A stretch of 64,000 bases of DNA. Origin: Ruminiclostridium cellulolyticum H10 (GTDB lineage: Bacteria; Bacillota; Clostridia; Acetivibrionales; DSM-1351). The first letter of the stretch is position 1. Each line of letters opens with the position of its first letter. The DNA lies in the NCBI RefSeq assembly GCF_000022065.1, contig NC_011898.1, positions 2,844,501-2,908,500 of the forward strand, given 5' to 3'. Positions 6,001 to 35,077 of the stretch are shown here, piece by piece. The notes under the pieces were generated by a model, which had not been told where the DNA came from, made no database searches, and saw only the letters and a program-made list of their open reading frames with translations. A program made the translations under genes and the position numbers.

Positions 6001-6147
6001 TGGAAATTTTACTGACATACCAATTATTGCAATTCCGTCATTTTGTTTTTTATTGGTTTTCAGAAGCTTCAATAATTCCGCCCCTACTTGCTTGTCAATT
6101 TTCCCGGCTACGCTGTTCTCAAAAATGATTTGTGCGATTTTATCCAT
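1..6147 (-). CDS. Hybrid PKS-NRPS, KS-KR-ACP-C-A (3' end outside window)
   Basis: Incomplete at its C-terminus; 2049 residues are visible. Domains in order: ketosynthase about 40-460 with active-site Cys210 in DTACSSS and the HGSGT and NIGHL histidine motifs; ketoreductase about 895-1110 (TGGTGGIG and the FSS...Y active-site region); acyl carrier protein with GGDS near 1219; condensation domain about 1285-1720 with HHIISDG near 1407; adenylation domain from about 1745 with TSGSTG and NEYGPTEN. No acyltransferase domain lies between KS and KR, so malonyl loading must come in trans. Aligned to GrsA, the visible A-domain selectivity residues are D-S-E-L-T-A-E-V-C, for which I cannot name a substrate. 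The ATG overlaps the stop of the upstream PKS gene by 8 nt, which suggests translational coupling. The N-terminal helix (first ~35 residues) looks like a docking element matching the C-terminal tail of the preceding PKS. It would add one ketide and then one amino acid. Confidence 0.9.
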   Translation of the reverse strand, partial: MDKIAQIIFENSVAGKIDKQVGAELLKLLKTNKKQNDGIAIIGMSVKFPGAETAGEYWSNIINSTDSIRKMSEERKRDIEDFMLHFTSSVNPDFVYPEGGYLSDIDKFDYSFFHISPNEARYMSPEQRLFLETAWSAIEDAGYGGNILSGSKTGIFVGHGDAPWYGQYVLKTDPVLQSLAFAGNISSIIASRLAYLMDLKGPSMLIDTACSSSLVAVHNACKSIQNGECDYAIAGGVTLNIIPVKGVLDVGIEAGDFRTRSFDNNSTGTSWGEGVAAILLKPLERALADNDNIYAVIKGSAINQDGSSAGLTAPNMLSQADVIVKAWKEAGINPETISYIEAHGSGTKLGDTIEIEAIKRAFSRYTSKRQFCALGSVKTNIGHLGGTSGIAGLIKAVLALKNCELPPMINLSFPNREIDFVDSPVYLNNRLEDWTTEGVARRCGVSSFGLSGTNCHVVLEEAVRKDTETSANPGPFIFTLSAKSENSLKQLVKQYKDYVSRESIPNLGDICFTASNGRAHYNYRIAFLAEDSEDFIKKINGLDIHDFRMNLDGEAVCCHYAKFKDEGNEVSYILDGENGKSLKTHIFEKAKAILNKYMENKSREQLEELCKLYVIGASIDWSRLYSSGKYFRKRLPVYQFERERCWVESKKSIRNTSSGDVGFNHLYFGTEWVPSGTIPGNWGSQDGYTLILKNQSEFSDDLIEKLKDKYKYVIEIVSGSNYERLSDTSYIINGSRADYDKLFHDLKDIHISKIIHMLSLERNRSVDSIYELEEAVENGVMSLFHLCRSLIDNDIKNEIDVVLISDYITRVTGEEEYINPENASLFGLGKIMDQEYGHLKCRAIDIDENTKIETLLNEISCGYQSYHVAYRNGERYIEKFKKIKLSEYGKEDIKLVENGAYVITGGTGGIGLEIAKYLSALKKINIVLIGVSKLPERHLWPDIIERGQEKKLCTKLEGIIQIEKLGASVDYYSADVSDEFEMRTVISRIRGEYGRINGVVHSAGIAGDGFIIRKDEKAFRKVLAPKIKGTWLLDRLTIEDKPDFFIMFSSAVSIFGAPGEGDYTAANSYLDSYTWHRSGRGKTLTINWTGWKDVGMIVNLEIDTEGSKVLPTRLAVNAFGLVINRKMSRVMIGEIDYDNEIHSKFGANAIMLSDEILQENKAKNAQSGFDTVVAENEIKLSGRQNENYSETEKRVANIWGSILGYDRIRTSDNFFELGGDSIIAMKAVNSINKLMGLKIVVSDLLRNPGFTEFVKFLEESSEAETDALNNTVSIRPAEEKEYYPVSSAQKRLFILDKLDNSGLSYNIPAIMSVKGDISCVKLKEVFSEIINRHEILRTSFESIKGMAVQRVLKDIKFTIDYEEASDEQVESLIKDFIRPFNLKEAPLLRIKLVKLAQENHILMFDIHHIISDGISMGIIVKEFVDLYKGKKLDKIILSYKDFAQWQNDMLDSEHIKKQKEYWLGAFAGEIPVLGMPTDYPRLHSRTFDGNRIGFELDCDIISGLRELSARTNTTLFMILLAAYNILLLKYTGQEDIIVGSPVAGRELPEVESMIGMFVNTVALRNCPKYEMKFTDFLEKVRINVLDAFKNQDYQFDDLVNDLGIKRDASRNPLFDTMFIVQNMGLPDIAIDNLKFNYYHFKYNMSKFDFSLEIGDGGETIPCYLEYSTKLFKQETAQRMITHYMNILRQIIKDASKTIADIGILTDSEKHRILYEFNYTETALRGDKTLVELFIEQVRRTPDNIAIVHEQTELSYCELNAKANRIAGFLQSRGVKPGSVVGIMVNRSIDMVAGVIGILKAGAAYLPIDPEYPSHRIQYMLNNSNTDLLLTSYELAERIDSGYNTICIKNEEIECFDCIEPNIKPSPDNLAYIIYTSGSTGNSKGVMIEHKSIVNTLEWRRKYYGFNPNDAVLQIPSFSFDSSVEDIFTALISGARLVLINQEDRFDLPQLREIFIKQKITNLLVVPSFYRVLLDEISDSMKNVRIITIAGESFTSTLVSKHFEKLGNVRLVNEYGPTENSVCTSFYEFDKDRTEVLIGKPINNTKCYIL

Positions 6148-9100
6148 TTTGATCCTCCATTGAACTCAGACGGTCAAGCGCATTATCTATACTCATTTCG
6201 CCCTTGGAAACCATATCAAAGAGATCGAATATGTTTTCATTTATATTATTTTCTTTGTTCAAATCCAGTTGAGTGCTTTTGCTAGGCTTTTTACTTTCAA
6301 AACCCGATATGTATTCTGCCATTTTTGCTATGGTGGGATAGGCAAATATGTCAGCAATGCTTATATTTTGTGAGAACTCTTTCTTTAGCCTTTCATGTAT
6401 ACTTGCAGCCAAAATGGAATCTCCTCCCATTTCAAAGAAATTGTTATATATACTCAATTGCTTGTAGCCTAAAACACTCCCCCAAATTCCTGCAATTTTT
6501 CTTTCAGCCTCACTATATTCTCCACTGCTTTTTCCAGTCAGTGTAAGCTCCTGCTTGTGGCTTTTTTCTGGCAATATCGTTTTCTTTTGGTGGGCGTCAA
6601 TTTTTTCTTTTAATTCCGAGGAAAAATTGAAGGGCAAAAAATCCTCCAATTTAAATAAAGCTGCATCCATATTCAGCTCTCCTGCAATAACCTTAGGGAG
6701 GTTCAAACAGATTGTCTCGTCAAAAGCCTTTAGTGCTGCGGCCTGCGGCAGCACTTTGAATATGTGCTTTTCCTCAAAAGTCTTTTTGTCACCGATTGAA
6801 TCACTTCTGTACCAGGGGGCCCAATCCAACGCCATATACTTTGTTACTGAAGTTTTCCTTTTAAACGAATAGGCGTCCAAATAGCAATTAGCTGCAGTAT
6901 AGTGACTGCTGCCTCTTCCACCTATAAGTGTAATGGCTGATGAAAACATAATGAAAAAGTCTAAATTATCTTTCCGGGTCAATTTATCTAATAGCCATGT
7001 ACCTCTCAGCTTGGGCTTCAAAACTTCCCTGAAGGTCTCCTCAGTTTCTTCTCCGATTATTCTTCCTGTCATATTTGCACCAACTCCGGCACAATGGATT
7101 ATTCCATTGATCTTGCCATGTTTATTTCTGATAGCTTCCAACACCTCAGATAGCTCTCTTTCCAGAGATATATCCGCAGTGTAGTAGGCAACCTTGCAGC
7201 TGAACTTTTCCAGTTTTTCCATAGCCTCCAATTTCCCGGAAAGCACGGTATCCCGGCCATTACTTACAATATCCTTCCAATATTCCCGTTCAGGTAGTTT
7301 GGTACGCCCAATCAATATAATGTTTGCATTATGTCTTTTTGCCACATGAACCGCTAGTTTTGTTCCTATATCACCCAGTCCGCCTGTTATCACATATGTT
7401 CCATTTTCTTTAAAGTAAATATTGCTCTTTTGAACCATATCCTTTTGAATACTCTGCAATTGTTCTACATACCTCTTGCCCTTGCGATAAGCAACTTTGA
7501 AATACTTCTTTTGAGACCGTATCTCCTTTATTATGTTTGCGTAAGGCGTTTCTTTATCTAATTCAATACACCTGCTGCTAAAGCCCGGATATTCAAAGGG
7601 GAGTACCATTCCCACCCCTGTTATGGCAGAATCATCAGGGTAAATATCTTCATGCCCTATAATTTCATTAACAGGACGTGAAACAAGAACAAATTCCACC
7701 CTTTGTCCTGCAAACTTTCTGGCAAAAGCCGCGGTAAATCTGAAAAAGGCGTACAGACCGTCATCCAGATTACTTTCAAACTGCTCCGGACTGTTTATCT
7801 CTATCTCCTTCTCCCGTGGTGTCAGGTATAAAACACGAGTTATATTCTCACAGGAGAGTACTTCTAATAACTTTTCATAGCCCCCTCGTGTGTTGACACA
7901 CTCATAGGAATTCTTCCCCAAATCCTTGAATTCAGTGCCTTTAAAAACTTGTATAAGCTGGTCTCCGCTTTCTTGTAATCCTTTAACAATACTGTTATAG
8001 AGTTGGCATCTCTCACCAAATACCAGGACTGTTCCTCTTTCAAGCAGGTCTGTCGTTTCAAGACAGGTTTCATCGTGAATCCAAACATTTTCATACAGGA
8101 TATCCTGACTTTGCACCATGCTCTGTGCAGAATGCGGAATGTTTATCCAACATCTGTTTTTTTCGAAGGGATAAGCAGGTAGACTTATTTTTCTCCTGCC
8201 TTCTCCTGTATACAGTCTTTCCCACTCAATCTCTGCACCCTTTGTATAAAGTTCCATTAATTCATGAAGTAGTTCCTGTCTATTTTTATTTAGTAAGAAT
8301 TCTTCCATTTTTGTCTTAGCACTATTTGTAATCTCTTTGATTTCTTTATCAGTAAAATCAAATACGCCTGTCCTCGGTCTGTCTTTATCTATCATGAAAT
8401 AAGCACCGTAATATATATAGGCATTTTCAAAGCTATAAGCTCCACTATTCAGAAAGAAGTTCAGCCTTAAAAGCAGCTCATCCAAGCTGTCTGCAAGCAC
8501 AGACAACCTGTAATTATAGTGCTCTCTACCGGTATTGGCAGTGTAACAAATGCTATGGAAATCTTCTGCTTTGCAAGCCTCCAGATAGCCTATATATTGG
8601 GCCACCAGAGTCTTCAAGGCCGTTTGGCTTCTGGCTGAGACAGTAAACACTCCTGTTTCAGAATCCTGAAATACTTTATGTTCCCGTAGTTCGGGTGCTT
8701 CTTCAAGTACAATATGACTGTTTGTTCCACTTATACCAAACGAGCTAACCCCGCATCTTCTTTTGTCTCCTGAGCGTTCCCATTCAGCTGTCTTATCTGC
8801 CACATAAACGGGAGAATCTATAAAATCAATTTCTGCGTTAGGTTTATTGAAATGAAGGTTTTTAGGTATAGTTTTATGTTTCAGGGAAAGCACTGCTTTT
8901 ACAAAACCCAAAATTCCAGCTGCACTGTCTAAATGACCGTAATTTGATTTGGCAGACCCAACTGCACAAAAGCCGGTTCTGTTTGTAAACCTTCCAAATG
9001 CCTTTTTTATCCCTTCAATTTCTATTGGATCGCCAAGTCTTGTTCCTGTGCCATGTGCTTCTATGTAGGATATAGTTTCAGGATTTATGCCCGCATCCTC

Positions 9101-10036
9101 CCATGCCTTTATTATTACACTTTCCTGAGCACTTGCACTTGGAGCGGTAAGCCCCAAGGAGCTTCCGTCACTGTTGATCGCACTTCCCTTTATAACCGCA
9201 TATATATTATCCATGTCCAAGATGGCTTTGCTCAAAGGCTTTAGTATCACCGCAAGAACGCCTTCACCTGTACCAGTGCCATCGGAATCAAAATCAAATG
9301 TTTTAGTCCTTCCGTCAGAAGAAGAAGTCCCTATATCTGTTTGTTTTACAGGCAGTATATGGAGCTGGATTCCTCCTGCAATTGCCATATCACATTCGCG
9401 ATTTATTAATGACCTGCATGCAAGATGAACTGCAACCAGAGAAGATGAGCATGTAGTGTCTATCAACATGGTGGGCCCTTTCAGGTTCAGTATATATGAG
9501 ATTCTGCCTGCAATTACAGGCCGCAAATTCCCTACCGCAGCTACCGATATGGACTGAGGCTCCACTTTTGAAATCATTTCCTTATAATCACAATCGGCTC
9601 CACAGCCAAGAAATATACCCGTATTGGTATCCTTTATCTTATTTCCTCCATATCCCGCATCTTGAATAGCCTTCCATGCCACTTCCAAAAACAGTCTTTG
9701 ATTGGGATCCATCAATCCGGCTTCTTTGGGAGATAGTTTAAAAAAACCGTAATCAAATTTATCAACCTCTTTTATGAATGCGGCCTGACCAATTGTTTTT
9801 TGGGACTCTCCGGTACTTATAAAATCCAAATAGGCAGTTATGTCCTTTTTTCTTTCCTCGGGAATTTCTCCTACACAGTCTACGCCAGCTTTTAAGTTTT
9901 GCCATAGTTCGTCCACTGTTTCAGCCTTTGAAAGCTTGACTGCAATACCAATTACAGCAATATCCTTGCAGGATATTTCCTCTATAGTGTTATTCATTTT
10001 CTTGCTGCCAAGCTTAATTTCACTAAAGTCCAACAT
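6140..10036 (-). CDS. Polyketide synthase module KS-KR-ACP without AT
   Basis: A 1298-residue single-module PKS. The ketosynthase spans about 25-450 with Cys196 (DTTCSSS), His328 (EAHGTGT) and His368 (NYGHL), so all three catalytic residues are present. The ketoreductase lies in about 905-1110 with TGGLGDIG and an SS...HYTAAN active-site region. The acyl carrier protein phosphopantetheine serine is Ser1207 in MGGDS. There is no AT domain between KS and KR, so this is a trans-AT or otherwise AT-less module, and the acyltransferase is not in this window. The acidic/hydrophobic C-terminal tail (about 1267-1298) resembles a docking segment for the next protein. The start is an ATG with AAAGGA upstream. 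It is predicted to extend the tyrosyl intermediate by one malonyl unit and reduce it to a beta-hydroxy product. The gene lies 17 bp downstream of the tyrosine NRPS. Confidence 0.92.
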   Translation of the reverse strand: MLDFSEIKLGSKKMNNTIEEISCKDIAVIGIAVKLSKAETVDELWQNLKAGVDCVGEIPEERKKDITAYLDFISTGESQKTIGQAAFIKEVDKFDYGFFKLSPKEAGLMDPNQRLFLEVAWKAIQDAGYGGNKIKDTNTGIFLGCGADCDYKEMISKVEPQSISVAAVGNLRPVIAGRISYILNLKGPTMLIDTTCSSSLVAVHLACRSLINRECDMAIAGGIQLHILPVKQTDIGTSSSDGRTKTFDFDSDGTGTGEGVLAVILKPLSKAILDMDNIYAVIKGSAINSDGSSLGLTAPSASAQESVIIKAWEDAGINPETISYIEAHGTGTRLGDPIEIEGIKKAFGRFTNRTGFCAVGSAKSNYGHLDSAAGILGFVKAVLSLKHKTIPKNLHFNKPNAEIDFIDSPVYVADKTAEWERSGDKRRCGVSSFGISGTNSHIVLEEAPELREHKVFQDSETGVFTVSARSQTALKTLVAQYIGYLEACKAEDFHSICYTANTGREHYNYRLSVLADSLDELLLRLNFFLNSGAYSFENAYIYYGAYFMIDKDRPRTGVFDFTDKEIKEITNSAKTKMEEFLLNKNRQELLHELMELYTKGAEIEWERLYTGEGRRKISLPAYPFEKNRCWINIPHSAQSMVQSQDILYENVWIHDETCLETTDLLERGTVLVFGERCQLYNSIVKGLQESGDQLIQVFKGTEFKDLGKNSYECVNTRGGYEKLLEVLSCENITRVLYLTPREKEIEINSPEQFESNLDDGLYAFFRFTAAFARKFAGQRVEFVLVSRPVNEIIGHEDIYPDDSAITGVGMVLPFEYPGFSSRCIELDKETPYANIIKEIRSQKKYFKVAYRKGKRYVEQLQSIQKDMVQKSNIYFKENGTYVITGGLGDIGTKLAVHVAKRHNANIILIGRTKLPEREYWKDIVSNGRDTVLSGKLEAMEKLEKFSCKVAYYTADISLERELSEVLEAIRNKHGKINGIIHCAGVGANMTGRIIGEETEETFREVLKPKLRGTWLLDKLTRKDNLDFFIMFSSAITLIGGRGSSHYTAANCYLDAYSFKRKTSVTKYMALDWAPWYRSDSIGDKKTFEEKHIFKVLPQAAALKAFDETICLNLPKVIAGELNMDAALFKLEDFLPFNFSSELKEKIDAHQKKTILPEKSHKQELTLTGKSSGEYSEAERKIAGIWGSVLGYKQLSIYNNFFEMGGDSILAASIHERLKKEFSQNISIADIFAYPTIAKMAEYISGFESKKPSKSTQLDLNKENNINENIFDLFDMVSKGEMSIDNALDRLSSMEDQNG

Positions 10037-10053: not shown

Positions 10054-13000
10054 CTATTTGTCACACATAAGCTCTAAAAGCTCAATGTACTGGTTAAACA
10101 TCTCCAGAGCCTTGTTCTTCAGAATTTTTCCGCCATTATACTCAAAGGAAAGTGTCATACCGTCAGTATCCTTGATATATTGAAGAATTATATCGTATTT
10201 TTTAAATAGACCTGTATCTGTAGTCATAAGACTTTTATTGTATATAAGCGGGCAGACGGAATAGTCCGTATTCTTGATCTCAAATTTGTCAATGTCGCTG
10301 ACATCATAAGAATCACTATTGTTTTCTTTAAATCTATCACACACTAATAAATACAGCTCAGAGAAATTCTTTACTTGTGAAATATCTATTTCCATATCGA
10401 CGATTCTATTAGGAGAACACATTACCTGAACTGAAACCTGTTCAGTCCCGGCCGCCTGTGACAGTAAATAAACATATGCTGCTATGAAAATAGTATATAC
10501 ATCAACCTTTTCACGGTGTGAAATCGCATTTAGCTTGTTTGCTGTTTCATCATCAAACCTTATTCTGAAAACTGAGTTTGGAATACTTGAATTTTTATTG
10601 CTCCTAAAGTCTTGTGGTAAATTTATGGAGCCAACAGTCAATTTTTCATCAGTATGATTCTCATCCTTCGTCAATAGGACAGCCAGCTTTGAAACGGTAG
10701 AATTATCAAAAAGATCGGTAATTTTAACTTTTCCGGGATAGATTTTTTCCAACTTTGCGTGAACCTGCATCAAGAGGATTGAATTGCCTCCCAGATCAAA
10801 AAAGTTATCATTTCTGCCAAAATAATCTTTGTCCAGAACCTGCTTCCATATATCAGCTACCAGCGTTTCCACTGAATTATCGGGCGGCTGGTATAAAGCA
10901 GCATTTCTGTCCGCCCCTGAAATCTCCTGAAGTGCTTTCCTGTCCAGTTTACCGTTTTGCGTAAACGGCAGTTTGTCCACAAAAATGAATTGGGTCGGCA
11001 CCATATAGTCAGGAAGTTCTTCTTGTAGGAATGAGCGCAGCGTTGATATCTGCAGCTCCTTCTCAGCTGCAATGTAGGCACATAGATATTTGCTGCCATC
11101 CCCATTTTCTTTGTCAATTACAGCAGCTTGCTTTATTGAACTGTGCTTTATCAGCCTGGCCTCAATTTCGCCCAGTTCAATCCTGAAGCCCCGTATTTTT
11201 ACCTGATGATCTATTCTTCCAATGTATTCAATATTTCCGTCAGGCAGCCATTTACCCGAATCACCTGTTTTGTACATAACTTTTCCCTGTTCAAACGGAT
11301 CAGGCACGAATTTTTGTTGTGTCAGCTCAGGCCTATTAAGGTACCCTCTTGCCACGCCATCTCCTGACAAACATATCTCCCCGGTCACTCCTATCGGCAT
11401 GGGCTGATTGTATTTATTTAAAATATACACCCTTGTGTTTGCTATTGGACGGCCTATAAGGATATTTTCAGCTTTTTGTAAATTTCTGAATACCGTGGAA
11501 GCAACACTGTTCTCTGTGGGGCCGTATTCATTCACCAACTCCAGATCTTCTCTTTTTTGCAAACTCTTTGTAGCTAGCTTAGCCGGAACTTTTTCTCCTG
11601 CCAGTGTTACAACCTTCAGACTTTCCATATCATTACCGCTCAGGTAATCCTGTATAGCCGTATATAACGTAGGGACACATATAAAATGGGTTATTTTTTT
11701 CCCCACTATATGTTCTTTTATTCTCATCAGATTTATTACTTCTATATCATCTGGAAGAACAACCATAGCCCCGGATACAATTGGAGTGAAAAAGCTGGTC
11801 AGAAATCCGTCAAAGCAGTGGGAAAACAATTGTAATACAGCATCTTCTTCATTCATGCTATATTCCGCTTTTCTCCATTGTATTGTATTAGTAATGCTTT
11901 TGTGCTCTACCATTACTCCTTTTGGTTTTCCCATGGAGCCGGAAGTATATATTATGTATGCCAGATCATTTTCACTGTTTAGTTTATCAAGATTGTTGCT
12001 ATCACCTTTATACAATCCACAATCATCTATATCTATTGTTGTTACATCTGTCCTTATTTTACTTATCAGATGGCTTTGGCACAGCAATATATCAGCACCG
12101 CTGTCTTCAAGAATATTACGCAGCCTCTCATCAGGGTATCCTGCATCTATAGGTAGATATGCACCTCCTGATTTTAGAATTCCAATAATACCAATAACCA
12201 TTTCAATGGAGCTGTTTGCCATAATTCCCACTATGGTTTCCCTTTTCACACCTGCATTTCTTAAGTGCCTTGCCAATTGATTTGCCTTCTCGTTTAATTC
12301 ACGATATGTGAATCTTGCAGTTATAAATTTATTGTGTTTTCTTTCCTCATATGATTTCAACCTATCATTTACGTCAAAATAATGTTTGCTGATTTCCAAA
12401 TTGAGTTTCTCGTCCATAAAATCTATAAACGGGTAGTTTATACTGGACAAGTCCGGGTATTGTTTTAGCTTCATATTTTTTTTGCTATATGTCAGGTAGT
12501 CATCAAAGCAACGAGCACTGGATTTCAGCCCATAATTGACTGCACTTTCAGCAAGGTCTGCACCGGGCTGTGCATGAAGCTTTCCCCAGTCAAGTCCCTT
12601 AAAGAATGGATACCTTTCCAGTATACTTTCAAGCATATGAATGCTCTCAGAAGCGTCTTCCACTGTAAAGAAAGGCAGTCCTGCTATTAAATTTATCTTG
12701 ACTTCTATGTTGTCAAATTCAGAACAGTTGTTAAAGAACTTCAATATTTGTTCATTTTCAGGCTGAGGTTTGACCATTCCCTGTTCGTTGAGCTGATTTC
12801 TATGTCTCTCGGACAGGCTACATAAGTCTATGTTAAGGTTTACGTATTTAAAGGTTTGGGAAATCAGTCTTATTACTTTCTTATCGGGCAAGGTCCAGAA
12901 GTAGAAAGAGCAAAAATGTTTTTTAAGGTCTATTCCTTCCCAAATACTTTTGTAGTACTCCAAAGTGTCAGATCCGGCTACCTCAAAATCAAACATAAAT

Positions 13001-15735
13001 GTGGAGGTATAGCCCATGACCGCACTGATATCTTTTCTAACCTCTTCCGGTCTCCGCAAAAACGGCTTTACTCTTCCGAATGTTCTCTTTTGTGCTGTTC
13101 TGCACCCTCCACAGTAAAAGCAATTCGCATAACAGCCCTTACCGGTGAAAATATAGAAGTACTGAGAATATAGTGGGTCCTCCTTGCGTACAAAGATCTT
13201 ATCCATATGAGACAGATATATATCATGTGAATTTTCTTCATTTTGAATGTAACTTATCTCATTTATTACAATTTTTCCATTTATTTTATAAGCACAATTA
13301 GGAATATATTCTGCCTTTTGACATATTTTCAAAAGCGGTAATTCACCGTCTCCCAGAATAATATAATCCACATGCTTATTCCCCGTTAACTCCCTCCAGT
13401 AGTAGGATGCTGTATTACCTCCTATCACTACAGATATTCCCGGATCATATTCTTTGACTATTTTGCATATTTCCAAAGAACGTGCAATGTGAGGAAACCA
13501 TTTCATACTTATTCCCACCAGCTTGGGCTTAATTGTACGCAAAAGTTCTCCTATATTCTCTTTTAATTCCTCATTAGTACCTGTAGTGTCATTCCACTGA
13601 CAATACGCTTCTATGCCATTCCTTCTCAGATATGAGGCAAGATATAATATCCCCGTTGACGCAGTTCCTGTAGTATCCCCCAAAAGCAGTACCGGTGCAA
13701 TACTATCCCCAGGGTCAGCTTGTCCCGCTATCGCTTTTATATCGGTCTGTATCTCCCTGTTTTCCCGGTTACCTGCTTCATATTCTTCAATACAGCAACT
13801 ATCTGAACAGGTTAATAATTTGTCTGTGCCTACAATATGCAACAAGTTACAAATATCCAGCTCTATTAGTAGCTTAATGAAATCCATGAAACTCTTTGAT
13901 ATATTAAAAATCTTTTTGTTCCATTTAAAATAATCTTTTATAATGTCTGATTTACTTCTAAGAATAATATAATTCTTTTCATTCATTGCCAAGGATTCAT
14001 AGATTTGCTTTAAAGTACTGGTTCCGTCAAACAGTTTTAAAGCCGACAGTACAGGTGTACTTATTACGACAATATTGCCTTTATTTGTTTTCACCATTCT
14101 CAGGTCTTCACTTTTTTCAACAATGTTTCTATTGCTAAACAGGTTCTGAGAATCAAACAAGTGAATGTATTCATTCTTTGAGTAAACACAATCCTCCAGC
14201 ACCTTTATCAAAGATGGACTGATTTTCCCTGCAAGTACTTTATTATATACATCTCCCAGTGCCATATCAAAACAAACCGCTATACTGTCGGGTGTTCGTT
14301 CTACCTGCTCCTCAAATAATTCAAAAAGGGTTTTACCCTTTTCATACGGGGTAGCTGTATCGTTAAATTCATTCAAAATACACTTTGTCTCTGAATCCTT
14401 AACAATACTAATTTCAGAGAACTCACGGAAGGGATTTTCCACTATATCCTTCAGTATATCCACAAAAACCCTGCTGATATTTGTTATTGAGGATTCTTCG
14501 AAAGCATTGGAATTGTACGTCAGTGCCAACCTTATATTTTGTGTCAGCATGGAAACCTCAACAGTAAGGTCAAAGTCAGTCATTTCTTTGATAGAATATG
14601 AAATTATTGACAGACCGGGACCTTTTTCTGTAAGCATTCTGTCAATAGGATAATTTTCTACTATAACAATTGAGTCAAACAGTGTGCTGCTTTTATCTAC
14701 CTCACTATAGGATTTTATATCAACAAGTGCAGTACTTCCAAACTCTTCCCTGTCTCTCACTGCCTTATCAACCGCTTTTAATAAGTCAAATATTTTAGTA
14801 TCTCCGTTACTATTTATTCTCAGCGGAATGGTGTTAATAAATAAACCTACTATATTTTCAACATTCTTGATACTTGACTGCCTTCCTGATATGGTAGTCC
14901 CAAATAAAACATCATCTACATCAGAATATTTTTGCAGCAGAATCCCCCAAGTACAATACATGAGGGTTGCAATAGTTATTTCATTGTGCGTTGAAAAAGT
15001 TACTACACTGTCGGCTAATTCAGCAGGAAAAATACTGACATGTTTGCCTGCCTTAAAAGCATCTGTACCTATACTACAATAGGGAAGGCTTGTCTTTTTA
15101 TCAAACCCCTTTAAATATTCAAACCAGTACTCTTTCTGTCTGTCCTTTGGCTGTTCCAAACACCACCGTATAAAATCTTCGTACTTTCCCTTAACCGTTC
15201 TTTGTATTTCTCTTCCTTCACTGAAAGCGTTATAAGCATTTAAGAATTCCTTAATTAAAATACCATTGCTCCAACCATCAAATAAAATATGATGATATGT
15301 GAGAACCATTTCTTGTTCATTTTCGTTAATTCTCAGTAGTGAAACCCTGAAAGGATTTATTTCAAGGTCTACTCCGGTTTCCCAGTCACTTTTTAAAAAA
15401 CATTCTCTGGAATCAGATAAATTATCGTCCTTCTTATCCATGAAGTCATAAAATTCTATTGGAATTTCAAATTCTCTTTGAACTATCTGTACAGGTTTTT
15501 CTATCCCCTTCCACCTGAAAACAGTTCTTAAGGCAGTATTAGTCTCAGCAACGTGTTTCCATGCTTTTCTAAATATATCGGGGTCCAGACACCCTGACAG
15601 CTTCAGGCATAACTGCTCTATATACAAGCCACTTTCAGGATTATTTATGTAATCAAATAACATTCCAAATTGCATATGGCTCAAAGACAACATGTTCTCT
15701 ACATTTTCTCTTGATATCTTAGTTGACTGTATCAA
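10054..15735 (-). CDS. NRPS C-A-PCP with a B12/radical SAM module inserted in its tyrosine-type A domain
   Basis: A 1893-residue protein from a TTG start with an AGGTGG ribosome site. Domains: condensation about 14-450 with HHILFDG at 148-154; start of an adenylation domain about 468-490 (FELFEEQVERTPD); an insertion about 491-1137; the A domain resumes at FTYRELNEKANQ (1142 on) with TSGSMGKPKG at 1264-1273 and NEYGPTEN at 1402-1409; PCP with Ser1652 in LGGNS; then about 1700-1893, which resembles only the second lobe of a condensation domain and lacks HHxxxDG. Selectivity residues aligned to GrsA read D-G-T-I-T-A-E-V-A-K, the published tyrosine code. The insertion falls in the loop just before core motif A1, where A domains normally run straight from the 'A-V-V-F' strand into 'LTYREL'. 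It sits directly after the stand-alone radical SAM gene and before the PKS. I infer that it loads Tyr and that the inserted enzyme modifies it, probably by C-methylation. Confidence 0.92.
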   Translation of the reverse strand: MIQSTKISRENVENMLSLSHMQFGMLFDYINNPESGLYIEQLCLKLSGCLDPDIFRKAWKHVAETNTALRTVFRWKGIEKPVQIVQREFEIPIEFYDFMDKKDDNLSDSRECFLKSDWETGVDLEINPFRVSLLRINENEQEMVLTYHHILFDGWSNGILIKEFLNAYNAFSEGREIQRTVKGKYEDFIRWCLEQPKDRQKEYWFEYLKGFDKKTSLPYCSIGTDAFKAGKHVSIFPAELADSVVTFSTHNEITIATLMYCTWGILLQKYSDVDDVLFGTTISGRQSSIKNVENIVGLFINTIPLRINSNGDTKIFDLLKAVDKAVRDREEFGSTALVDIKSYSEVDKSSTLFDSIVIVENYPIDRMLTEKGPGLSIISYSIKEMTDFDLTVEVSMLTQNIRLALTYNSNAFEESSITNISRVFVDILKDIVENPFREFSEISIVKDSETKCILNEFNDTATPYEKGKTLFELFEEQVERTPDSIAVCFDMALGDVYNKVLAGKISPSLIKVLEDCVYSKNEYIHLFDSQNLFSNRNIVEKSEDLRMVKTNKGNIVVISTPVLSALKLFDGTSTLKQIYESLAMNEKNYIILRSKSDIIKDYFKWNKKIFNISKSFMDFIKLLIELDICNLLHIVGTDKLLTCSDSCCIEEYEAGNRENREIQTDIKAIAGQADPGDSIAPVLLLGDTTGTASTGILYLASYLRRNGIEAYCQWNDTTGTNEELKENIGELLRTIKPKLVGISMKWFPHIARSLEICKIVKEYDPGISVVIGGNTASYYWRELTGNKHVDYIILGDGELPLLKICQKAEYIPNCAYKINGKIVINEISYIQNEENSHDIYLSHMDKIFVRKEDPLYSQYFYIFTGKGCYANCFYCGGCRTAQKRTFGRVKPFLRRPEEVRKDISAVMGYTSTFMFDFEVAGSDTLEYYKSIWEGIDLKKHFCSFYFWTLPDKKVIRLISQTFKYVNLNIDLCSLSERHRNQLNEQGMVKPQPENEQILKFFNNCSEFDNIEVKINLIAGLPFFTVEDASESIHMLESILERYPFFKGLDWGKLHAQPGADLAESAVNYGLKSSARCFDDYLTYSKKNMKLKQYPDLSSINYPFIDFMDEKLNLEISKHYFDVNDRLKSYEERKHNKFITARFTYRELNEKANQLARHLRNAGVKRETIVGIMANSSIEMVIGIIGILKSGGAYLPIDAGYPDERLRNILEDSGADILLCQSHLISKIRTDVTTIDIDDCGLYKGDSNNLDKLNSENDLAYIIYTSGSMGKPKGVMVEHKSITNTIQWRKAEYSMNEEDAVLQLFSHCFDGFLTSFFTPIVSGAMVVLPDDIEVINLMRIKEHIVGKKITHFICVPTLYTAIQDYLSGNDMESLKVVTLAGEKVPAKLATKSLQKREDLELVNEYGPTENSVASTVFRNLQKAENILIGRPIANTRVYILNKYNQPMPIGVTGEICLSGDGVARGYLNRPELTQQKFVPDPFEQGKVMYKTGDSGKWLPDGNIEYIGRIDHQVKIRGFRIELGEIEARLIKHSSIKQAAVIDKENGDGSKYLCAYIAAEKELQISTLRSFLQEELPDYMVPTQFIFVDKLPFTQNGKLDRKALQEISGADRNAALYQPPDNSVETLVADIWKQVLDKDYFGRNDNFFDLGGNSILLMQVHAKLEKIYPGKVKITDLFDNSTVSKLAVLLTKDENHTDEKLTVGSINLPQDFRSNKNSSIPNSVFRIRFDDETANKLNAISHREKVDVYTIFIAAYVYLLSQAAGTEQVSVQVMCSPNRIVDMEIDISQVKNFSELYLLVCDRFKENNSDSYDVSDIDKFEIKNTDYSVCPLIYNKSLMTTDTGLFKKYDIILQYIKDTDGMTLSFEYNGGKILKNKALEMFNQYIELLELMCDK
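12325..14265 (-). other. Inserted domain block: PqqD-like segment + cobalamin-binding + radical SAM
   Basis: This is the part of the NRPS above (residues about 491-1137) that does not belong to an ordinary adenylation domain. Residues about 545-635 contain a segment with the look of a PqqD/RRE-like winged helix (LKLFDGTSTLKQIYESL followed by a helix ending LLIELDICNLL). Residues about 680-805 form a B12-binding-type Rossmann domain (VLLLGDTTG, LVGIS, VVIGGNTA, DYIILGDGE). Residues about 860-1110 are a radical SAM barrel with the canonical C868-xxx-C872-xx-C875 cluster motif (GCYANCFYCGGC). The B12 domain lacks an obvious DxHxxG, which is usual for cobalamin-binding radical SAM methyltransferases. 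The reading frame is continuous on both sides, so this is a true in-frame domain insertion and not two genes joined by error. The PqqD assignment is tentative; the radical SAM call is firm. Confidence 0.85.
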
Positions 15736-15771: not shown

Positions 15772-17409
15772 CTACTCAATATTTAAAAAATACTCAGCAA
15801 TTTGTAAATCAATACGTACCAGGCTGGTAAATAGCTTATTCTTTTCATTATTTAACCTTGAGGCAACTTCTTTTATGTAGGAAGCATTCAGCAATTCAGA
15901 CGATATATTATTTGCCTTTTCAATATCCCAATTTTCCTGTGCTAAATCCAATAGAGATTTAAACCATTTTGCCATTGAGCTGTTTATTTCTGAGCAGTTA
16001 TTTCTGTGATTGACAATAAAGTCATTTAAGATATTCCGGGCTTTTTCATATTGTTTTGCGGCAAACTGTCTTTTCAGATATATTAGCAGTGTTTGAAACT
16101 GGCAAGAATAGTAATTTATGAGCCTTAAGGAGTAGTCACTTTCCTTGTCCAGATAATTAGTATAATCAGAAAGATAATTATAAAAAGGTGTAATCCTTTC
16201 ATCAACAAATTTATATCCGTATTCATTATACTCAGGGGATAACAGCAATAGATTATCTTCTTTTATTTTTTCATATAGTACTGTGCCGGTAAATATTTTT
16301 ACCCTGCTGATAACTAAGTGTATAATGTTTGCAAATTGATATTCTTCCATAAATTCTATATTACTTCGTAAACCCTCAAAGGTAGAATATGGATTAAAAT
16401 TTATAAATCCTGGTACAACATTTATTTCATATTTTCTACAAGCCTCTGCTGCTCTGACATTGTCCGAAACTGAAGCATACTTCTGGTAGAATTTTAAGTC
16501 GTATTCATTAGCAGACTCATAACCTATACATGCTCCGCATAATCCTGACTTTTTTAATAAATCAATCAAAGCCTCATCCGCTTTTCTGAAAAACTCAGCA
16601 CGCAGATCAACAAAATATGAAATATTGAGCCGTCGCCTAATTATTTCTTCTGCAATACCACGTACTCTTTTCAGGTTAATACCTGGATCTTCAAAGCTTC
16701 CGTCAATGAAATTAAATGTTCTGACTCCATATTCCTTTACAATATATTCCATCTCATCAACAACATCTATGGGTTCCCTGCCTCTCCACTTCTTCCAGAA
16801 TAACTGGGAAGCACAAAAACTGCATTTTCCTGTACAACCTCTGGAGGACGAGATAACTGCAGTCTTTAATTTGTTTTCTTTTAATATATCTCTTGCAGGC
16901 CATGGTAGGTCTCCGATATTTTCTATCAGATTTCTTGGGGGATTAACTATAATACCTTCTGTACTTCTATATATTAACCCCTCAATATTTTCCAAACTCT
17001 TACCCTTATTCAGATGTTCAACCAGCTCCAGCCATGTAAGCTCGCCTTCTCCTCTGATTACAAAATCTATTAGCGGAATCTGTTCCATTATTTCTCTGAA
17101 ATTGTATGTTGGCAGTGTGCCCCCGATACAAAATAATGTATCCGGCATTATATTGTGAATTGCTTCAACAACTCTGCAAACACCATTTTTAGAAATATCG
17201 TACATCGGCAAGCCTACTATATTGGGCTTGAATTCTTCGATTCTTTTATAGTCAATGTTATCCTCAGACTGTCCTAATAATAAAGCTTCAAAACCACTTT
17301 GCCTTAAATAAGATGCAATATAAGAGATTCCTATTTCCTCAAAAGTTTCTCTCATTCCATAACAATATACTGACAGCAGCAGTATTTTTATCTTTTTTTC
17401 ACTGCACAT
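15772..17409 (-). CDS. Cobalamin-binding radical SAM enzyme
   Basis: About 545 residues from the ATG at 17409, which has GGGAGAGGTG upstream; an in-frame upstream GTG at 17448 extends the ORF but has no ribosome site. An N-terminal B12-binding-type domain (about 7-150: IKILLLSVY, IGISYIASYLR, CIGG, FVIRGEGE) is followed by a radical SAM domain with C192-xxx-C196-xx-C199 (GCTGKCSFC). The C-terminal ~170 residues are helical and not recognised. Family members (class B radical SAM methyltransferases and relatives) methylate unactivated carbon or rearrange carbon skeletons using cobalamin and SAM. Placed 36 bp before the NRPS that carries its own radical SAM module, it is likely a second tailoring enzyme for the same assembly line, acting on the Tyr unit, a ketide carbon or a later residue. 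The exact reaction cannot be told from the sequence. Confidence 0.88.
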   Translation of the reverse strand: MCSEKKIKILLLSVYCYGMRETFEEIGISYIASYLRQSGFEALLLGQSEDNIDYKRIEEFKPNIVGLPMYDISKNGVCRVVEAIHNIMPDTLFCIGGTLPTYNFREIMEQIPLIDFVIRGEGELTWLELVEHLNKGKSLENIEGLIYRSTEGIIVNPPRNLIENIGDLPWPARDILKENKLKTAVISSSRGCTGKCSFCASQLFWKKWRGREPIDVVDEMEYIVKEYGVRTFNFIDGSFEDPGINLKRVRGIAEEIIRRRLNISYFVDLRAEFFRKADEALIDLLKKSGLCGACIGYESANEYDLKFYQKYASVSDNVRAAEACRKYEINVVPGFINFNPYSTFEGLRSNIEFMEEYQFANIIHLVISRVKIFTGTVLYEKIKEDNLLLLSPEYNEYGYKFVDERITPFYNYLSDYTNYLDKESDYSLRLINYYSCQFQTLLIYLKRQFAAKQYEKARNILNDFIVNHRNNCSEINSSMAKWFKSLLDLAQENWDIEKANNISSELLNASYIKEVASRLNNEKNKLFTSLVRIDLQIAEYFLNIE

Positions 17410-17470
17410 TATGGCACCTCTCCCCTGTTTATTTAAATTTTGGTACACTAAGCTGCATATTTTTCTCTAT

Positions 17471-19909
17471 CTAACGTGAAATAAGAGTCACTTTATTATG
17501 GATACCATCCAATTCAATTTCGTCATCATTTCGAATTAACCCAAAAGCTCCTGTTACCCCATATAAAGCCGGAATTCCCATTTCTCTTGCAATTATCCCC
17601 ATGTGGTCAAAGGGAGAGCCTTCTTCAAAAATTATTCCTTTTACCCTGCTAAGAACTTCAAGTAAATCTCCGCAGTGTCCGTGGGGTAAAACAAGTATTC
17701 TGTCCTCCTCCAGATAATCCGGCATACCCACATGTACTTTACCCGTTACTTTTTTTCTCAGCCCTGAAATTCCTGACAACGTCACTCCTTCACCATTGTT
17801 TTCCCTATCGGAGGTTTCTCCCGGCTCTTCGTGTCCGTAATTAAAATCACCGGGATCTCTGCCTAAAAACCAAGGAGCGAGCATTCTTCTTTGTTCATTG
17901 TATAATTGCTTTCGGGCTTGGATTTTAGCTTTATAATCTGTATTATTCAAAAGCACAGTCTTAATCTCATCCAGCTTTAAAAAATATATATCTTCGGTAT
18001 TTCCTATTACCCCTTCATCTGCTAATATTTTTGAAGCGGCATCTACGGCAAGCCTGAGATAACCTGATGATGAAAGATCTATATAAAAATTGTGGTTATC
18101 ATTTATAAGGAAGGCTTTTTCAGCCATACTGAGCATTTTTAGAAATTTGCTTTTTTTGCTGTCATCTACTTTTTCTAGAAGTCGTTCTTTTACATTTTCT
18201 TTATTTTTCATTGTTTCATTTATTGTTCCCGACAAGGAATCTGCATCCACAAATAGGAATTCACGTATCCTAGGTAAAACAGCCTGGGGTTTTTCAAGAA
18301 CTACCTTATCCAGACATCGTGAGCCTATTCCTACAGCTGCAAAATCCTCTGCATACATATTTAGTTGACGAATTAATTCTTTTCCACCGGTAACATCACT
18401 TAACCGTGCATATATCAAATCTGTACTGTAACTGGAAAAGAACAGCTTTTTCAATTCAGCATTGTTGTTAATAGTCTTTGCCATTTCGGAAAGGTAAAGC
18501 CTTTCTTTTGTCAATATGCTTATGTTATAAATCAGACTGCAAAAATCATCCAGGCCTATTTCACCGAATTCCTTCCTGCAGTATTCTTTAAAAACATTTA
18601 TATAATTGCCGGACTCAACAATTATCCAATGATACTCCATAGTCTTTTTAATATACGCAAGTGCAAACTCAATAAAATCACAAGCTTCATGTGATGAGAG
18701 CTTTCTTCCTATATAATTTTTCATCTGATTTATCAGATTTAAAAATTCGGGAAGATATATGTCCTGAAATGCAATTTCACCATTATCATATAGTGAGTCC
18801 AGTTTTTCCGCTAATATCCTTCTCAGTTTTTCTGTGTCCAAATTGTCTTCTGCGGGTAAGTCCTTGCTTCTGGTATAAATGTATCCATTTTGGACAGTAA
18901 ACTCATCACAATAGCCATGCCCTGCTTCTGCAGCACCTTTATTAAAATAATGTCTCGACAGTATTGTCACTTCTTCTTCCAGAGGCCTAAAGGGACTCTC
19001 TTCCCATAAAAACCAAGTATATTCAGAACATCCCATTTTTTCATTGTCAACGGGAAAATTTTTGTTTTTAAATGTTGTTATGGGTCTTGCCTGTAATATG
19101 TATATTTTACCGTTACTTTCAGTCCATTCTATGTCCTGATAATATTTTAGTACCTGCTCAACTTTTAAAAATGTATTGAATAGGCTGCCTATCTCTGTAT
19201 CATGAATTTTTTTCATGCTATCAGGTATATTACATTCCAGTACACAACCGTTATTTTTATCGATTTTATACAGTGAAGAAATTGTCTCCCCTACAACAAA
19301 TTTGGAACAGATACCATTTACGACATTTATATCCATCAAATTTTCATTCATATCAATGGTGTCTGCTGTAAAAGTAACCCCTGACATTGTTCCATCAATA
19401 AATTCCTGGACGATTATACCCATTTTCAAATTATCAAGCCCAATGCTATTTTCGCATATATAAGCTAATGCCCTGTCACTGAACAGAGACTGATAGCATT
19501 TTAATATTGCGGCCTTGACTTCATTGACATTATCCAGACCAACGTAGGACTCAAATATTCCTGCCATACTGGAAAAATCCAGGTCTTCGCAAATTGCAGA
19601 TGACCTTACAGCAAATTTTGCATGTGCATTTTCCTGCAAAATTTTATCTAAATGAACATCAATTATATCCTCAACCCTCGAAGGAATTTTACATTCTGCA
19701 ATAAAATCACTTATCTCATTTGATTTTTGAAGATAGTCTTGTTCTTTGTAGCAGAAGTTATTAAAATCCATAATTTCCGAAAAAATCTCTTTTGATAAAG
19801 CAAATCCTCTTGGAACCAAAAACCCATTTTTGAGTAATTTTGCCAACATAACAGCCTTGCTTCCAAAAATACTCTTATTTTCGGTTATTGCCTCTAAGTT
19901 TCCAATCAT
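17471..19909 (-). CDS. PEP-synthase-like phosphotransferase (ATP-grasp + phosphohistidine domain)
   Basis: 812 residues, ATG preceded by AAAGGAG. The N-terminal ~290 residues are a PPDK/PEP-synthase ATP-grasp domain (FGSKAVMLAKLL..VPRGFAL; AVRSSAICEDL near 100; VQEFIDGTMSG). The C-terminal ~90 residues are the swivelling phosphohistidine domain, with the probable phospho-accepting His769 in FDHMGIIAREMGIPAL. The PEP/pyruvate TIM barrel of true PPDK is missing; the ~430-residue middle is instead of the kind seen in rifampin phosphotransferase and related secondary-metabolism enzymes. The expected chemistry is transfer of the ATP beta-phosphate through His to a small molecule, with AMP and phosphate released. 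In this operon, between exporter and radical SAM genes, the acceptor is probably the pathway product or an intermediate, for self-protection (compare the amicoumacin kinase) or activation. The substrate is not known. Confidence 0.8.
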   Translation of the reverse strand: MIGNLEAITENKSIFGSKAVMLAKLLKNGFLVPRGFALSKEIFSEIMDFNNFCYKEQDYLQKSNEISDFIAECKIPSRVEDIIDVHLDKILQENAHAKFAVRSSAICEDLDFSSMAGIFESYVGLDNVNEVKAAILKCYQSLFSDRALAYICENSIGLDNLKMGIIVQEFIDGTMSGVTFTADTIDMNENLMDINVVNGICSKFVVGETISSLYKIDKNNGCVLECNIPDSMKKIHDTEIGSLFNTFLKVEQVLKYYQDIEWTESNGKIYILQARPITTFKNKNFPVDNEKMGCSEYTWFLWEESPFRPLEEEVTILSRHYFNKGAAEAGHGYCDEFTVQNGYIYTRSKDLPAEDNLDTEKLRRILAEKLDSLYDNGEIAFQDIYLPEFLNLINQMKNYIGRKLSSHEACDFIEFALAYIKKTMEYHWIIVESGNYINVFKEYCRKEFGEIGLDDFCSLIYNISILTKERLYLSEMAKTINNNAELKKLFFSSYSTDLIYARLSDVTGGKELIRQLNMYAEDFAAVGIGSRCLDKVVLEKPQAVLPRIREFLFVDADSLSGTINETMKNKENVKERLLEKVDDSKKSKFLKMLSMAEKAFLINDNHNFYIDLSSSGYLRLAVDAASKILADEGVIGNTEDIYFLKLDEIKTVLLNNTDYKAKIQARKQLYNEQRRMLAPWFLGRDPGDFNYGHEEPGETSDRENNGEGVTLSGISGLRKKVTGKVHVGMPDYLEEDRILVLPHGHCGDLLEVLSRVKGIIFEEGSPFDHMGIIAREMGIPALYGVTGAFGLIRNDDEIELDGIHNKVTLISR

Positions 19910-22900: not shown

Positions 22901-23035
22901 TCTGTCTACTATAGCCTTTTCAAGCTTATCTGTTTCAGTTTTGTCTTTTACCGTTTCTGCCGCCAAAACATTCAGGGGGGTGAGAAAAAACAAAACCGCA
23001 AGCAGTAAACAAATACCATTTTTTGTTAATTTCAT
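19937..23035 (-). CDS. Peptidase S12 (ClbP/ZmaM-like) fused to SyrD/PvdE-type ABC exporter
   Basis: 1032 residues, ATG after TAGGAG. An N-terminal signal/TM segment (about 5-25) leads into an extracytoplasmic serine-hydrolase domain (about 38-385). Its S12 motifs are Ser99-x-x-Lys102 (ELGSNSKAFTG), Tyr193 (YSYATINYDVLG) and His333-Gly-Gly. Three hydrophobic helices follow (about 396-418, 434-452, 470-495), the arrangement known from ClbP. Next comes an ABC transmembrane region (about 505-790) and a nucleotide-binding domain (about 815-1032) with Walker A GGNGSGKST, signature LSTGQRKR and the cyclic-peptide-exporter hallmark FDEWAADQDPEF. Fusion of a D-asparaginyl prodrug peptidase to an ABC transporter is the architecture described for ZmaM of zwittermicin biosynthesis. 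With the Asn C-A-PCP-E NRPS directly upstream, the likely role is export and removal of an N-acyl-D-Asn cap outside the membrane. The peptide specificity is inferred from context. Confidence 0.85.
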   Translation of the reverse strand: MKLTKNGICLLLAVLFFLTPLNVLAAETVKDKTETDKLEKAIVDRIEDHIHKYMKSGKIPGLSVVVVKDDRDIYKSSFGYSDLKRKEKVTENTLFELGSNSKAFTGIGILQLQEKGLIKLEDSINKYIPWLKLKYKGEAVDITVEQFLHHTSGIPFESIGYIKPDQRENALENTVKTLVGSELQYYPGTEYSYATINYDVLGLLIKIVTGESYEKYMHDNIVKTYGLNNTFLFREQASKKGVIAKGYKVGFLRPLEYNAPIYRGNTPAGYLISNINDIAGWLKIQMGTSNSVNDKKLIQESHIPNRSVRPYVDGSSYAAGWSVFQSGGGELSHGGSNPNYSSFIVFRPEEKLGVAVLANLNSSYVQTLGQGIIDIILDRETAAPQDDIYLIIDNVSVTISCIAVSIIIILLVLILHFIFQILKGNRKFEGSKIKCFVSTILSAVFILGFGYCLYSIPEVLYWGLPWDFVKVWAPFTLMAAVISLFILAIMVIVFLNLNFLFKKNKKNNRPLFIMAILSVFSGFGNALIIFIINQAVNGGREFQKGLFLYFMAGIVIYVAGQRLLRNMLVNITNEDVYSKRIMMIDRILNTPYQSIERIENGRIYAGLNNDTEVISNFANVVITGITSLVTLICCLVYLGIINIMGLIISIIVILVAAGLYFVMGRSANKFWEQTRDIQNTFFGFINDLTGGFKELYLNKFKRKQFSEDMKDKCYIYKEKRIRGDMKFNNVFIIGELMFTLVIGVVVFFFPVFLSNIQNTELKNYVLVFLYMTGPVHGLLSTIPNIFQVRISYSRISELIEQLPSIEDSENEKKALGADSSEKLNISLRGVEYSYINENSEAFKVGPIDCTFKSGEIIFITGGNGSGKSTLAKLITGLYQPDNGEITLNEVKTEISELVEKFSTVFSDFYLFKRLYGVDSINKSDDIKKYLELLHLSDKVHIEDGEFDTLKLSTGQRKRLALLITYLEDRPVLLFDEWAADQDPEFKRFFYRTLLPDLKTRGKCVIAVTHDDRYFDCADRIIKMETGSIYSEK

Positions 23036-27538: not shown

Positions 27539-27594
27539 AATAATAAACCTCACTTATCAGCTCATTAATTTAAAAATGAAGGTTGTACAAAAAA

Positions 27595-31736: not shown

Positions 31737-31768
31737 AAAAAAGCTCCTTTTGTTTCAAATACAACTTT

Positions 31769-33337: not shown

Positions 33338-33642
33338 TACGACCTCCACAAATCATTATGAATTTTAGAAAATTTGCCCAATTAATTTAATTTAATATTA
33401 ATTTTACCAACAATATGCTTCATTGTCTATAATTTACCGGAGCTATATGGCATAAGATATAATATATGTATTTTTAACCCATTTATCTATTCACATGTCA
33501 ATTATTTACTTAAAATGACTTTCTTCTTTAAAAAATGGCAAGATTCATTGTATTTTTATGAAGAAATGAGCAGAAAGTGAGTAGTATACTTATTTGCAAT
33601 AATATACAATAATTAACAACTATAATATAAGGGAGGTTTGAA
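33338..33642. other. Divergent intergenic region between SLH protein and MFS transporter
   Basis: A very A+T-rich ~300-bp spacer with no gene. On the minus strand a TTGACA is present near 33500, but the matching -10 is not convincing. On the plus strand TATAAT at 33621-33626 is too close to the GGGAGG ribosome site at 33631 to be the MFS -10. It must hold both promoters, but I cannot fix their positions. Confidence 0.4.
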
Positions 33643-35054: not shown

Positions 35055-35077
35055 TAGTTACATTCATCAAGGTAAAA

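Follow-up and report, generated by a model that had tools for sequence, protein, structure and literature searches.

A cobalamin-dependent radical-SAM enzyme embedded ahead of motif A1 in a tyrosine-type adenylation domain of Ruminiclostridium cellulolyticum

Results

Architecture of the interrupted NRPS gene

The stretch analyzed here, referred to as the window, comprises 64,000 nucleotides of Ruminiclostridium cellulolyticum H10 (G000:C1:2844501-2908500, G000 being the window's own genome, a single contig of 4,068,724 bases) and carries a nonribosomal peptide synthetase (NRPS) gene whose adenylation (A) domain is interrupted by a cobalamin (B12)-binding radical S-adenosylmethionine (SAM) enzyme. 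The gene starts with TTG, encodes 1893 amino acids (aa) and is open from 15735 to 10054 with no stop codon, just as a preliminary description of this DNA had stated for the passage from the condensation (C) domain through the first A strand and the insert into the later A motifs. Its parts follow each other as C domain, first A strand, insert of about 650 aa, A motifs A1 to A10, peptidyl carrier protein (PCP) and half a C domain, the last preceding a ketosynthase (KS) protein:

10054..15735, minus strand: NRPS gene, C - A (interrupted) - PCP - half C (frame, Pfam, motif positions)
14377..15699, minus strand: condensation domain, residues 13-453 (Pfam; HHILFDG at 15274-15294)
14269..14301, minus strand: end of the A-domain N-terminal helix and first strand, ERTPDSIAVCF, residues 479-489 (alignment, motif)
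12325..14268, minus strand: insert, whole B12-binding radical-SAM protein, residues 490-1137 (family match, relatives, model)
13696..14268, minus strand: N-terminal region of the insert, earlier called PqqD-like (no Pfam match to E 5; low model confidence)
13333..13656, minus strand: B12-binding domain, residues 694-801 (PF02310, 3.5e-12)
12634..13146, minus strand: radical-SAM core, residues 864-1034 (PF04055, 1.1e-3, below cut-off; TIGR04190; motif)
10924..12330, minus strand: A domain from A1 to A10, tyrosine-type code (Pfam, motifs)
10681..10860, minus strand: PCP, LGGNSI at residues 1648-1653 (Pfam PP-binding 1626-1685, motif)
10057..10668, minus strand: part resembling the C-terminal lobe of a C domain, preceding the KS protein (second Condensation stretch in Pfam)

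In the Pfam scan of the whole protein AMP-binding was matched at residues 1136-1466, entering the profile at position 15 of 384, and AMP-binding_C at 1523-1596. Since the uninterrupted A domain of the neighboring 1495-aa protein is matched from profile position 1, we infer that the first 14 profile positions were severed by the insert. Behind the break, A1 (FTYRELNEKANQ) lies at residues 1142-1153 (12277-12312), A3 at 1258-1274 (reading SGSMG instead of the usual SGSTG), A5 at 1402-1408, A7 at 1488-1492, A8 at 1506-1525 and A10 at 1594-1599. When aligned with two window A domains that are not interrupted, the protein proved to carry the insert in place of roughly six residues located between the strand IAV/IAI and [FIL]TY/SYxELN, a site which we take to be a hairpin turn of the A fold.

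The nine specificity positions read D-G-T-I-T-A-E-V-A, whereby at PheA position 278 MAFFT had placed C and the ungapped motif gave I, which was adopted by eye. The final K of DGTITAEVAK was added by rule, and the PheA control gave the expected reading. We take DGTITAEVAK to be a tyrosine (Tyr) code, in agreement with the preliminary description. Every A motif is retained and the domain is split by another catalytic domain within one frame, which places it among the interrupted A domains; the usual sites a2-a3 and a8-a9 are not used and the break precedes A1, but as these sites are usual and not defining, the module is classed as a variant. The window A domain is an interrupted adenylation domain with a complete cobalamin-dependent radical-SAM enzyme in place of the short turn between its first two strands. 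Evidence from Pfam, TIGR04190 and the motif positions thus agrees with the earlier placement of such an enzyme just before A1 of an otherwise complete Tyr-type domain, and its cysteines 868, 872 and 875, the break and all later A motifs were recovered where they had been reported.

We read the stretch 10057-10668 as a part resembling the C-terminal lobe of a C domain. It aligns with the same region of the sister-cluster protein described below; in the window the KS protein comes directly after it, and the sister cluster has one small gene separating the two.

Characterization of the insert

The insert carries CYANCFYC at residues 868-875 (13111-13134). A profile scan for the three families proposed as a check in the preliminary description returned AMP-binding and B12-binding, whereas Radical_SAM stayed below its cut-off: it went unreported for the whole protein at a threshold of E 0.001, and the insert alone gave 1.1e-3 and 19.6 bits against a cut-off of 29.5. 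Instead, the B12/radical-SAM family TIGR04190 was matched over insert residues 204-590 (3.8e-46, 157.8 bits), not reaching its equivalog cut-off of 500. A B12-binding domain followed by a core with CxxxCxxC, which characterizes cobalamin-dependent radical-SAM enzymes, is present, the fold match from the model being poor around the cysteine loop.

By structure, the insert model was most similar to B12 radical-SAM enzymes, with CysS ranked first and OxsB, AprD4 and MiaB among its neighbors. Among the 50 matches listed by Foldseek for the A domain plus insert, all were A-domain or related ligase structures, confirming the A part alone. A PDB sequence search with the insert returned one match (E 0.66) and a profile search four, the best (E 0.081) being spurious and TokK appearing at E 1.5. 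For the N-terminal region no Pfam match was obtained up to E = 5, and the model is unreliable there with a predicted local distance difference test score (pLDDT) of mostly 25-56, so that its former designation as PqqD-like found no support; 16 of its 180 gap-free columns are invariant across three homologues. The GC content of the insert is 0.37 and that of its flanks 0.35-0.40.

Relatives and rarity of the insert

Six short peptide patterns reaching close relatives only were used to scan 84,980 species genomes. The 18 matched stretches belonged to three loci, one of which is a full-length relative, a free-standing 660-aa open reading frame (ORF) of Desulfosporosinus nitroreducens with 44-45% identity to the insert, the alignment spanning from about residue 11 of this ORF through its end. 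As this free-standing relative has the same length, the insert represents a whole enzyme. The Desulfosporosinus gene adjoins a gene for an Rv2949c-like chorismate lyase (PF01947, 3.1e-20) and one whose product we read as AMP ligase, acyl carrier protein (ACP) and KS.

The other relative was found in G005, a genome of the window's genus, where a 795-aa ORF (L013/L014:9725-12112) combines an A-type N-terminal strand, the radical-SAM block and AMP-binding profile positions 18-99 only. This copy is embedded at the same A-domain site as the window insert, in a truncated A domain; with about 100 aa of A domain followed by a stop, the ORF, which belongs to a FabF/ACP cluster, looks like the remnant of an A domain that was interrupted. 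We read the ORFs of this cluster, of which the cyclase, ligase and B12 radical-SAM genes were subjected to Pfam, as AMP ligase, ACP, ketoreductase (KR), two KS, FMN-reductase-like and ABC-F genes. Homologues of the same order, suggested earlier as a check, are hence represented by the G005 copy (same site, truncated A domain), but not by the free-standing Desulfosporosinus copy; since one of these two relatives is embedded at the same site, the radical-SAM block is not always a separate protein. Given their identical site, the insertions in G005 and in the window could go back to one event, but the A fragments are not specially close.

The insert family was detected in two of 11 genomes of the window's taxonomic family (E<=1e-30) and in four of 58 of its order (E<=1e-25), among them two weaker relatives of TIGR04190 type (1.9e-27 and 9.1e-27). 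The class and phylum draws (1/391 and 1/398, E<=1e-40), where no more than three candidates were scored for each listed genome, yielded the window's own genome alone, and the two samples around Desulfosporosinus (1/45 and 1/82) the known relative. No relative of the insert was present among the plasmids or viral contigs searched, viral scans with the upstream A domain and with the neighboring radical-SAM gene gave zero matches, and in a phage search with the whole NRPS protein the best 5 of 33 records match A/PCP parts only.

Across the three insert proteins (two genera, three clusters) 182 of 632 gap-free columns are identical, and residues unique to one protein number 75 in the window copy, 78 in the Desulfosporosinus and 102 in the G005 copy. 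In this coarse test with three members the window copy shows no acceleration and no sign of decay, and the relaxed selection named earlier as a possible objection was not detected. The truncated A domain around the G005 copy and the rarity of the family could suggest a non-functional or decaying passenger; given the retained CxxxCxxC motif, a B12-binding match above cut-off, the identical columns, the lack of a unique-residue excess in the window copy and a GC content in line with the flanks, we regard this as very improbable. A sequencing or assembly error fusing two genes, for which no support was found, is practically negligible, since the genome is a single contig and both junctions of the frame fall at the A-domain site that is also used in G005.

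A sister cluster with a different radical-SAM block

A search of the window's own genome returned C-domain matches and split A-domain pieces within one further frame:

G000:C1:1165805-1172254 (L026:806-7255), plus strand: sister NRPS module, stop-to-stop frame of 2150 codons

Here the order is C, A1-A2, Radical_SAM (647-810), B12-binding (984-1094), A3-A8, a PP-loop block, A9-A10, PCP and half a C domain. The PP-loop block between A8 and A9 matches the WbuX N-acetyl sugar amidotransferase family (TIGR03573, 9.4e-21, 74.6/203.2 bits). Relative to two free-standing homologues encoded in G031, the segments of the A2-A3 block are swapped: its residues 34-342 and 409-548 align with 169-479 and 32-166 of the first, and 13-317 and 383-549 with 162-466 and 8-176 of the second, which amounts to a circular permutation.

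The A2-A3 block is likewise embedded in G028 (76% identity), G011 (74%) and G040 (55%, the contig ending soon after A3). Together with G000 and G031, which holds the two free-standing copies, these make up five of the 58 genomes of the order (E<=1e-30). In the class draw it occurred in two of 391 genomes (E<=1e-50), our own and G337, whose NRPS has the A2-A3 block and an unbroken A8-A9 region, and in the phylum draw in one of 299 (E<=1e-60), again our own. The embedded type is consequently known from five genomes (G000, G011, G028, G040 and G337), three of which have the PP-loop block at A8-A9, its motif being retained in G028 and G011. The plasmid search gave one record only, a Roseibium radical-SAM protein (37% coverage, 36% identity). 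The code of the sister module reads DPWYLGTINK, with DPWYIGTINK in G011 and DPWMMNTINK in G028; to our knowledge these match no established specificity code.

Both clusters were compared by blastp (1e-10; ORFs of at least 250 codons, coding strand only). Pairs were formed by the 1495- and 1512-aa proteins of type C-A-PCP-E (E, epimerization domain; 51%), the peptidase proteins (42%), the interrupted-A proteins through their C domains (44%), the KS-KR-ACP proteins (41%) and two B12 radical-SAM proteins (41%). Asparagine (Asn)-type module, peptidase, interrupted module and KS protein form a core order common to both clusters; the two radical-SAM genes that match each other, as well as a 423/438-aa gene pair, sit at differing places, and the other genes differ. 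G028 and G011 share this core order, with an additional small gene (a thioesterase in G028) ahead of the interrupted module; their Asn-type module was named by homology (49-51% to that of the sister) and the E-type HH motif, not by code.

A midpoint-rooted tree was calculated for 23 C domains from the fetched regions (matches >330 aa and >60 bits, others dropped). The C domains of five interrupted modules (window, G000 sister, G011, G028, G040) form a group with 100/99 support, which also includes one other sister-cluster C domain paired with that of G040 (91/87). Within it, the window C domain is sister to those of the three A2-A3 modules of G000, G011 and G028 (100/97); three other rows of the tree are long-branched. 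A single origin of both radical-SAM inserts was considered and rejected, since they share 24% identity over 114 aa (2e-5) and occupy different A-domain sites. From the paired clusters and the grouping of the C domains it follows that each of these related modules took up a B12 radical-SAM block of its own, the two blocks being unrelated and lying at different A-domain sites. The A core of the window module may itself have been exchanged, its identity being 43% to other A domains versus 35-39% to the sister module's (longer pieces; 47% over 85 aa).

The insertion could also serve mainly as a physical anchor, with an enzyme that works in trans or on a different intermediate bound to a carrier (acyl-Asn-Tyr or a later polyketide). 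Relatives in clusters where no Tyr A domain was seen (the Desulfosporosinus polyketide synthase (PKS) and the G005 FabF/ACP cluster) are consistent with such a role, and a block of about 650 aa attached through a loop could move freely. We nevertheless consider it quite unlikely, as two different radical-SAM blocks in the corresponding module of sister clusters suggest that the place matters, and as methylase-interrupted A domains modify the amino acid of their own module, according to two reviews (PMC11355689, PMC8949500).

Neighboring genes and the assembly line

The interrupted gene is surrounded by further assembly-line genes:

23066..27553, minus strand: upstream NRPS C-A-PCP-E, 1495 aa (Pfam; code DLTKIGEVCK)
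19937..23035, minus strand: S12-type peptidase of the beta-lactamase fold, in one protein with an ABC exporter of the cyclic-peptide type (PF00144, 9.6e-62; TIGR01194, 384 bits, cut-off 286)
17471..19909, minus strand: PPDK_N / PEP-utilizers protein (PEP-synthase-, PigC- and Rph-like matches, all below cut-off)
15772..17448, minus strand: free-standing B12 radical-SAM enzyme, BchE-like and OxsB-like (closest solved structure by sequence OxsB, 1.3e-17)
6140..10036, minus strand: downstream PKS KS-KR-ACP, no acyltransferase match (trans-acyltransferase type; Pfam)

The code DLTKIGEVCK occurs in the upstream module of both the window and the sister cluster; we take it to be an Asn code, eight of ten positions agreeing with the Asn code. 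In the upstream module a PCP of the GGDSI type is followed by a domain with HHLIVDGVS (HHLVIDAVS in the sister), which by its position we read as an E domain. An Asn-type C-A-PCP-E module (its code 8/10 against that for Asn) and an S12-type peptidase, the two marks of a prodrug pathway, thus occur in one cluster, reminiscent of the acyl-D-Asn logic of colibactin, zwittermicin and xenocoumacin. The union of peptidase and exporter in one protein is also what the release of such a prodrug would lead one to expect. Because this module precedes the interrupted one and the peptidase gene lies nearby in both clusters, the residue loaded by the interrupted module would probably become the product N-terminus after acyl-D-Asn cleavage. 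The sister cluster contains no match to the PPDK-like gene, and the B12 radical-SAM gene 15772-17448 is matched there by 25% over 262 aa only; the products of both genes may modify this residue further. For the PPDK_N protein, a role in tailoring as a ligase or in self-resistance as a kinase is conceivable.

Genes for a dockerin-bearing GH9 cellulase and a GDSL esterase (29112-36013) adjoin the assembly-line cluster. At 38942-43608 a 1337-aa protein with a C-terminal Tox-SHH nuclease domain is encoded beside a SUKH (SMI1/KNR4) gene, likely a polymorphic toxin/immunity pair.

Discussion

With a probability of about one half, we propose that the embedded enzyme C-methylates carrier-bound Tyr in cis. 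The A domain would load Tyr onto its own PCP. Methylcobalamin of the embedded enzyme, replenished by SAM, would then donate its methyl group to this tethered Tyr, an aromatic ring carbon being a likelier acceptor than the beta carbon. The C domain would then couple the acyl-D-Asn of the upstream C-A-PCP-E module to the methylated Tyr, the PKS would continue, and the S12-type peptidase would finally cut off the acyl-D-Asn, leaving methylated Tyr as N-terminus. The ring is favored on account of the chorismate-lyase gene next to the Desulfosporosinus relative: 4-hydroxybenzoate, the product of this lyase, has nothing but the p-hydroxyphenyl ring in common with Tyr and lacks a beta carbon; drawn from one neighboring gene, this preference is weak.

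Several points weigh against this sequence-derived proposal. Methylation is not deducible from the sequence, since the fold includes the non-methylating AprD4 and OxsB. The AlphaFold models are weak, with mean pLDDT values of 53.9 (A domain plus insert; predicted template modeling score 0.37, too weak to interpret) and 59.3 (insert), and in the insert model the stretch 350-392 with the CxxxCxxC loop lies nearly entirely below 50. In G005 most of the A domain is gone, its fragment is 35% identical to the window A domain and up to 38.5% to others, and no Tyr or 4-hydroxybenzoate source is visible in the stretches examined. Furthermore, the family is rare, and its conservation is judged from three known members.

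Alternatively, the embedded enzyme could act in cis on tethered Tyr without methylating it, catalyzing oxidation, ring formation, rearrangement or C-C bond formation via cobalamin and the 5'-deoxyadenosyl radical. The closest family model, TIGR04190, names no function, the structural neighbors include OxsB, AprD4 (titled diol dehydratase) and MiaB, and a second, BchE-/OxsB-like B12 radical-SAM gene adjoins the interrupted one. OxsB performs an oxidative ring contraction, and we know of no sequence feature separating B12 radical-SAM methyltransferases from OxsB- or AprD4-type enzymes. Considering, however, that MgmA, TsrM and TokK are methylases by name or title, as is CysS according to PMC7966384, we regard chemistry other than methylation as rather unlikely.

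The differing inserts of the sister clusters suggest a recurring way of building radical chemistry into assembly lines. We consider it slightly more likely than not that, in prodrug-type NRPS/PKS lines of clostridia, the A domain following D-Asn has on two or more occasions taken in a complete B12 radical-SAM enzyme, once before A1 in normal order and once at A2-A3 in permuted order with a PP-loop block at A8-A9. A domains would thus serve as a chassis for several non-homologous anaerobic catalysts, directing radical chemistry to the mature N-terminal residue.

Engineered interrupted A domains have so far moved N-, O- and S-methylases, as far as the available part of PMC11355689 reports. With a B12 radical-SAM enzyme in this position, methylation or another change of unactivated carbon would become available in cis within one NRPS module of anaerobes. 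The window module adds a new site for insertions, a bifunctional protein open to testing and a marker for related clusters, and tailoring of the N-terminal residue of a cryptic clostridial product becomes experimentally addressable. The permuted A2-A3 block raises a directly testable folding question.

Comparison with known systems

Four PKS/NRPS clusters, CcelA-D, were described for C. cellulolyticum by Behnken and Hertweck in 2012 (PMC3250452), in the accessible text of which neither 'radical' nor 'adenylation' occurs; the KS counts given there do not plainly fit those found here. The part of the flavoaffinin preprint at hand (PMC11839114) does not mention 'radical SAM'. In what was accessible of the reviews PMC8949500 and PMC11355689, interruptions lie at a8-a9 and rarely at a2-a3, with a methylase, oxidase, monooxygenase or reductase as insert; neither the site before A1 nor a radical-SAM class of insert is named there, in line with the preliminary statement that no such case was known. 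The available parts of PMC9259500, PMC12858407, PMC7966384, PMC7277169 and PMC8456703 report no radical-SAM insert in an A domain either, the search leaving most subscription literature outside. Within this literature, as far as it could be seen, the insert class and the insertion site of the window module are new and the interrupted A domain as such is known.

Closest in design are TioN and MarQ, in which a catalytic domain likewise sits in a loop of a motif-intact A domain and, following PMC11355689 and PMC8949500, acts on the amino acid of its own module. Theirs is a classical SAM-dependent S-methyltransferase at a2-a3, whereas the enzyme of the window lies before A1 and belongs to the B12 radical-SAM class, to which an unactivated carbon is accessible. 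The KtzH and TioS methylases and the IndC oxidase, all at a8-a9, also form bifunctional A domains, with a different site and different insert chemistry. CysS, the B12 radical-SAM enzyme producing branched alkoxy groups on the aminobenzoates of cystobactamid, is a separate gene product (PMC7966384), and DscE of the discodermin pathway, likewise a radical-SAM methyltransferase in an NRPS pathway, is named as an enzyme of its own with no A-domain embedding mentioned in the accessible text of PMC12858407; the window enzyme, in contrast, is embedded. TIGR04190 (Ta0216) is the best family match over the B12 and radical-SAM parts, from which the insert differs by a score far under the cut-off, an extra N-terminal region of about 190 aa and its embedding.

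The sister module and those of G011, G028, G040 and G337 resemble the window in that a B12 radical-SAM block interrupts the A domain, and for four of these five the C domain belongs to the same group, G337 being outside the tree. They differ in radical-SAM subfamily, in the A2-A3 site and in the permuted order; three of them bear an additional PP-loop block at A8-A9, which is absent from G337, while G040 breaks off at its contig end, and the window module has its insert before A1.
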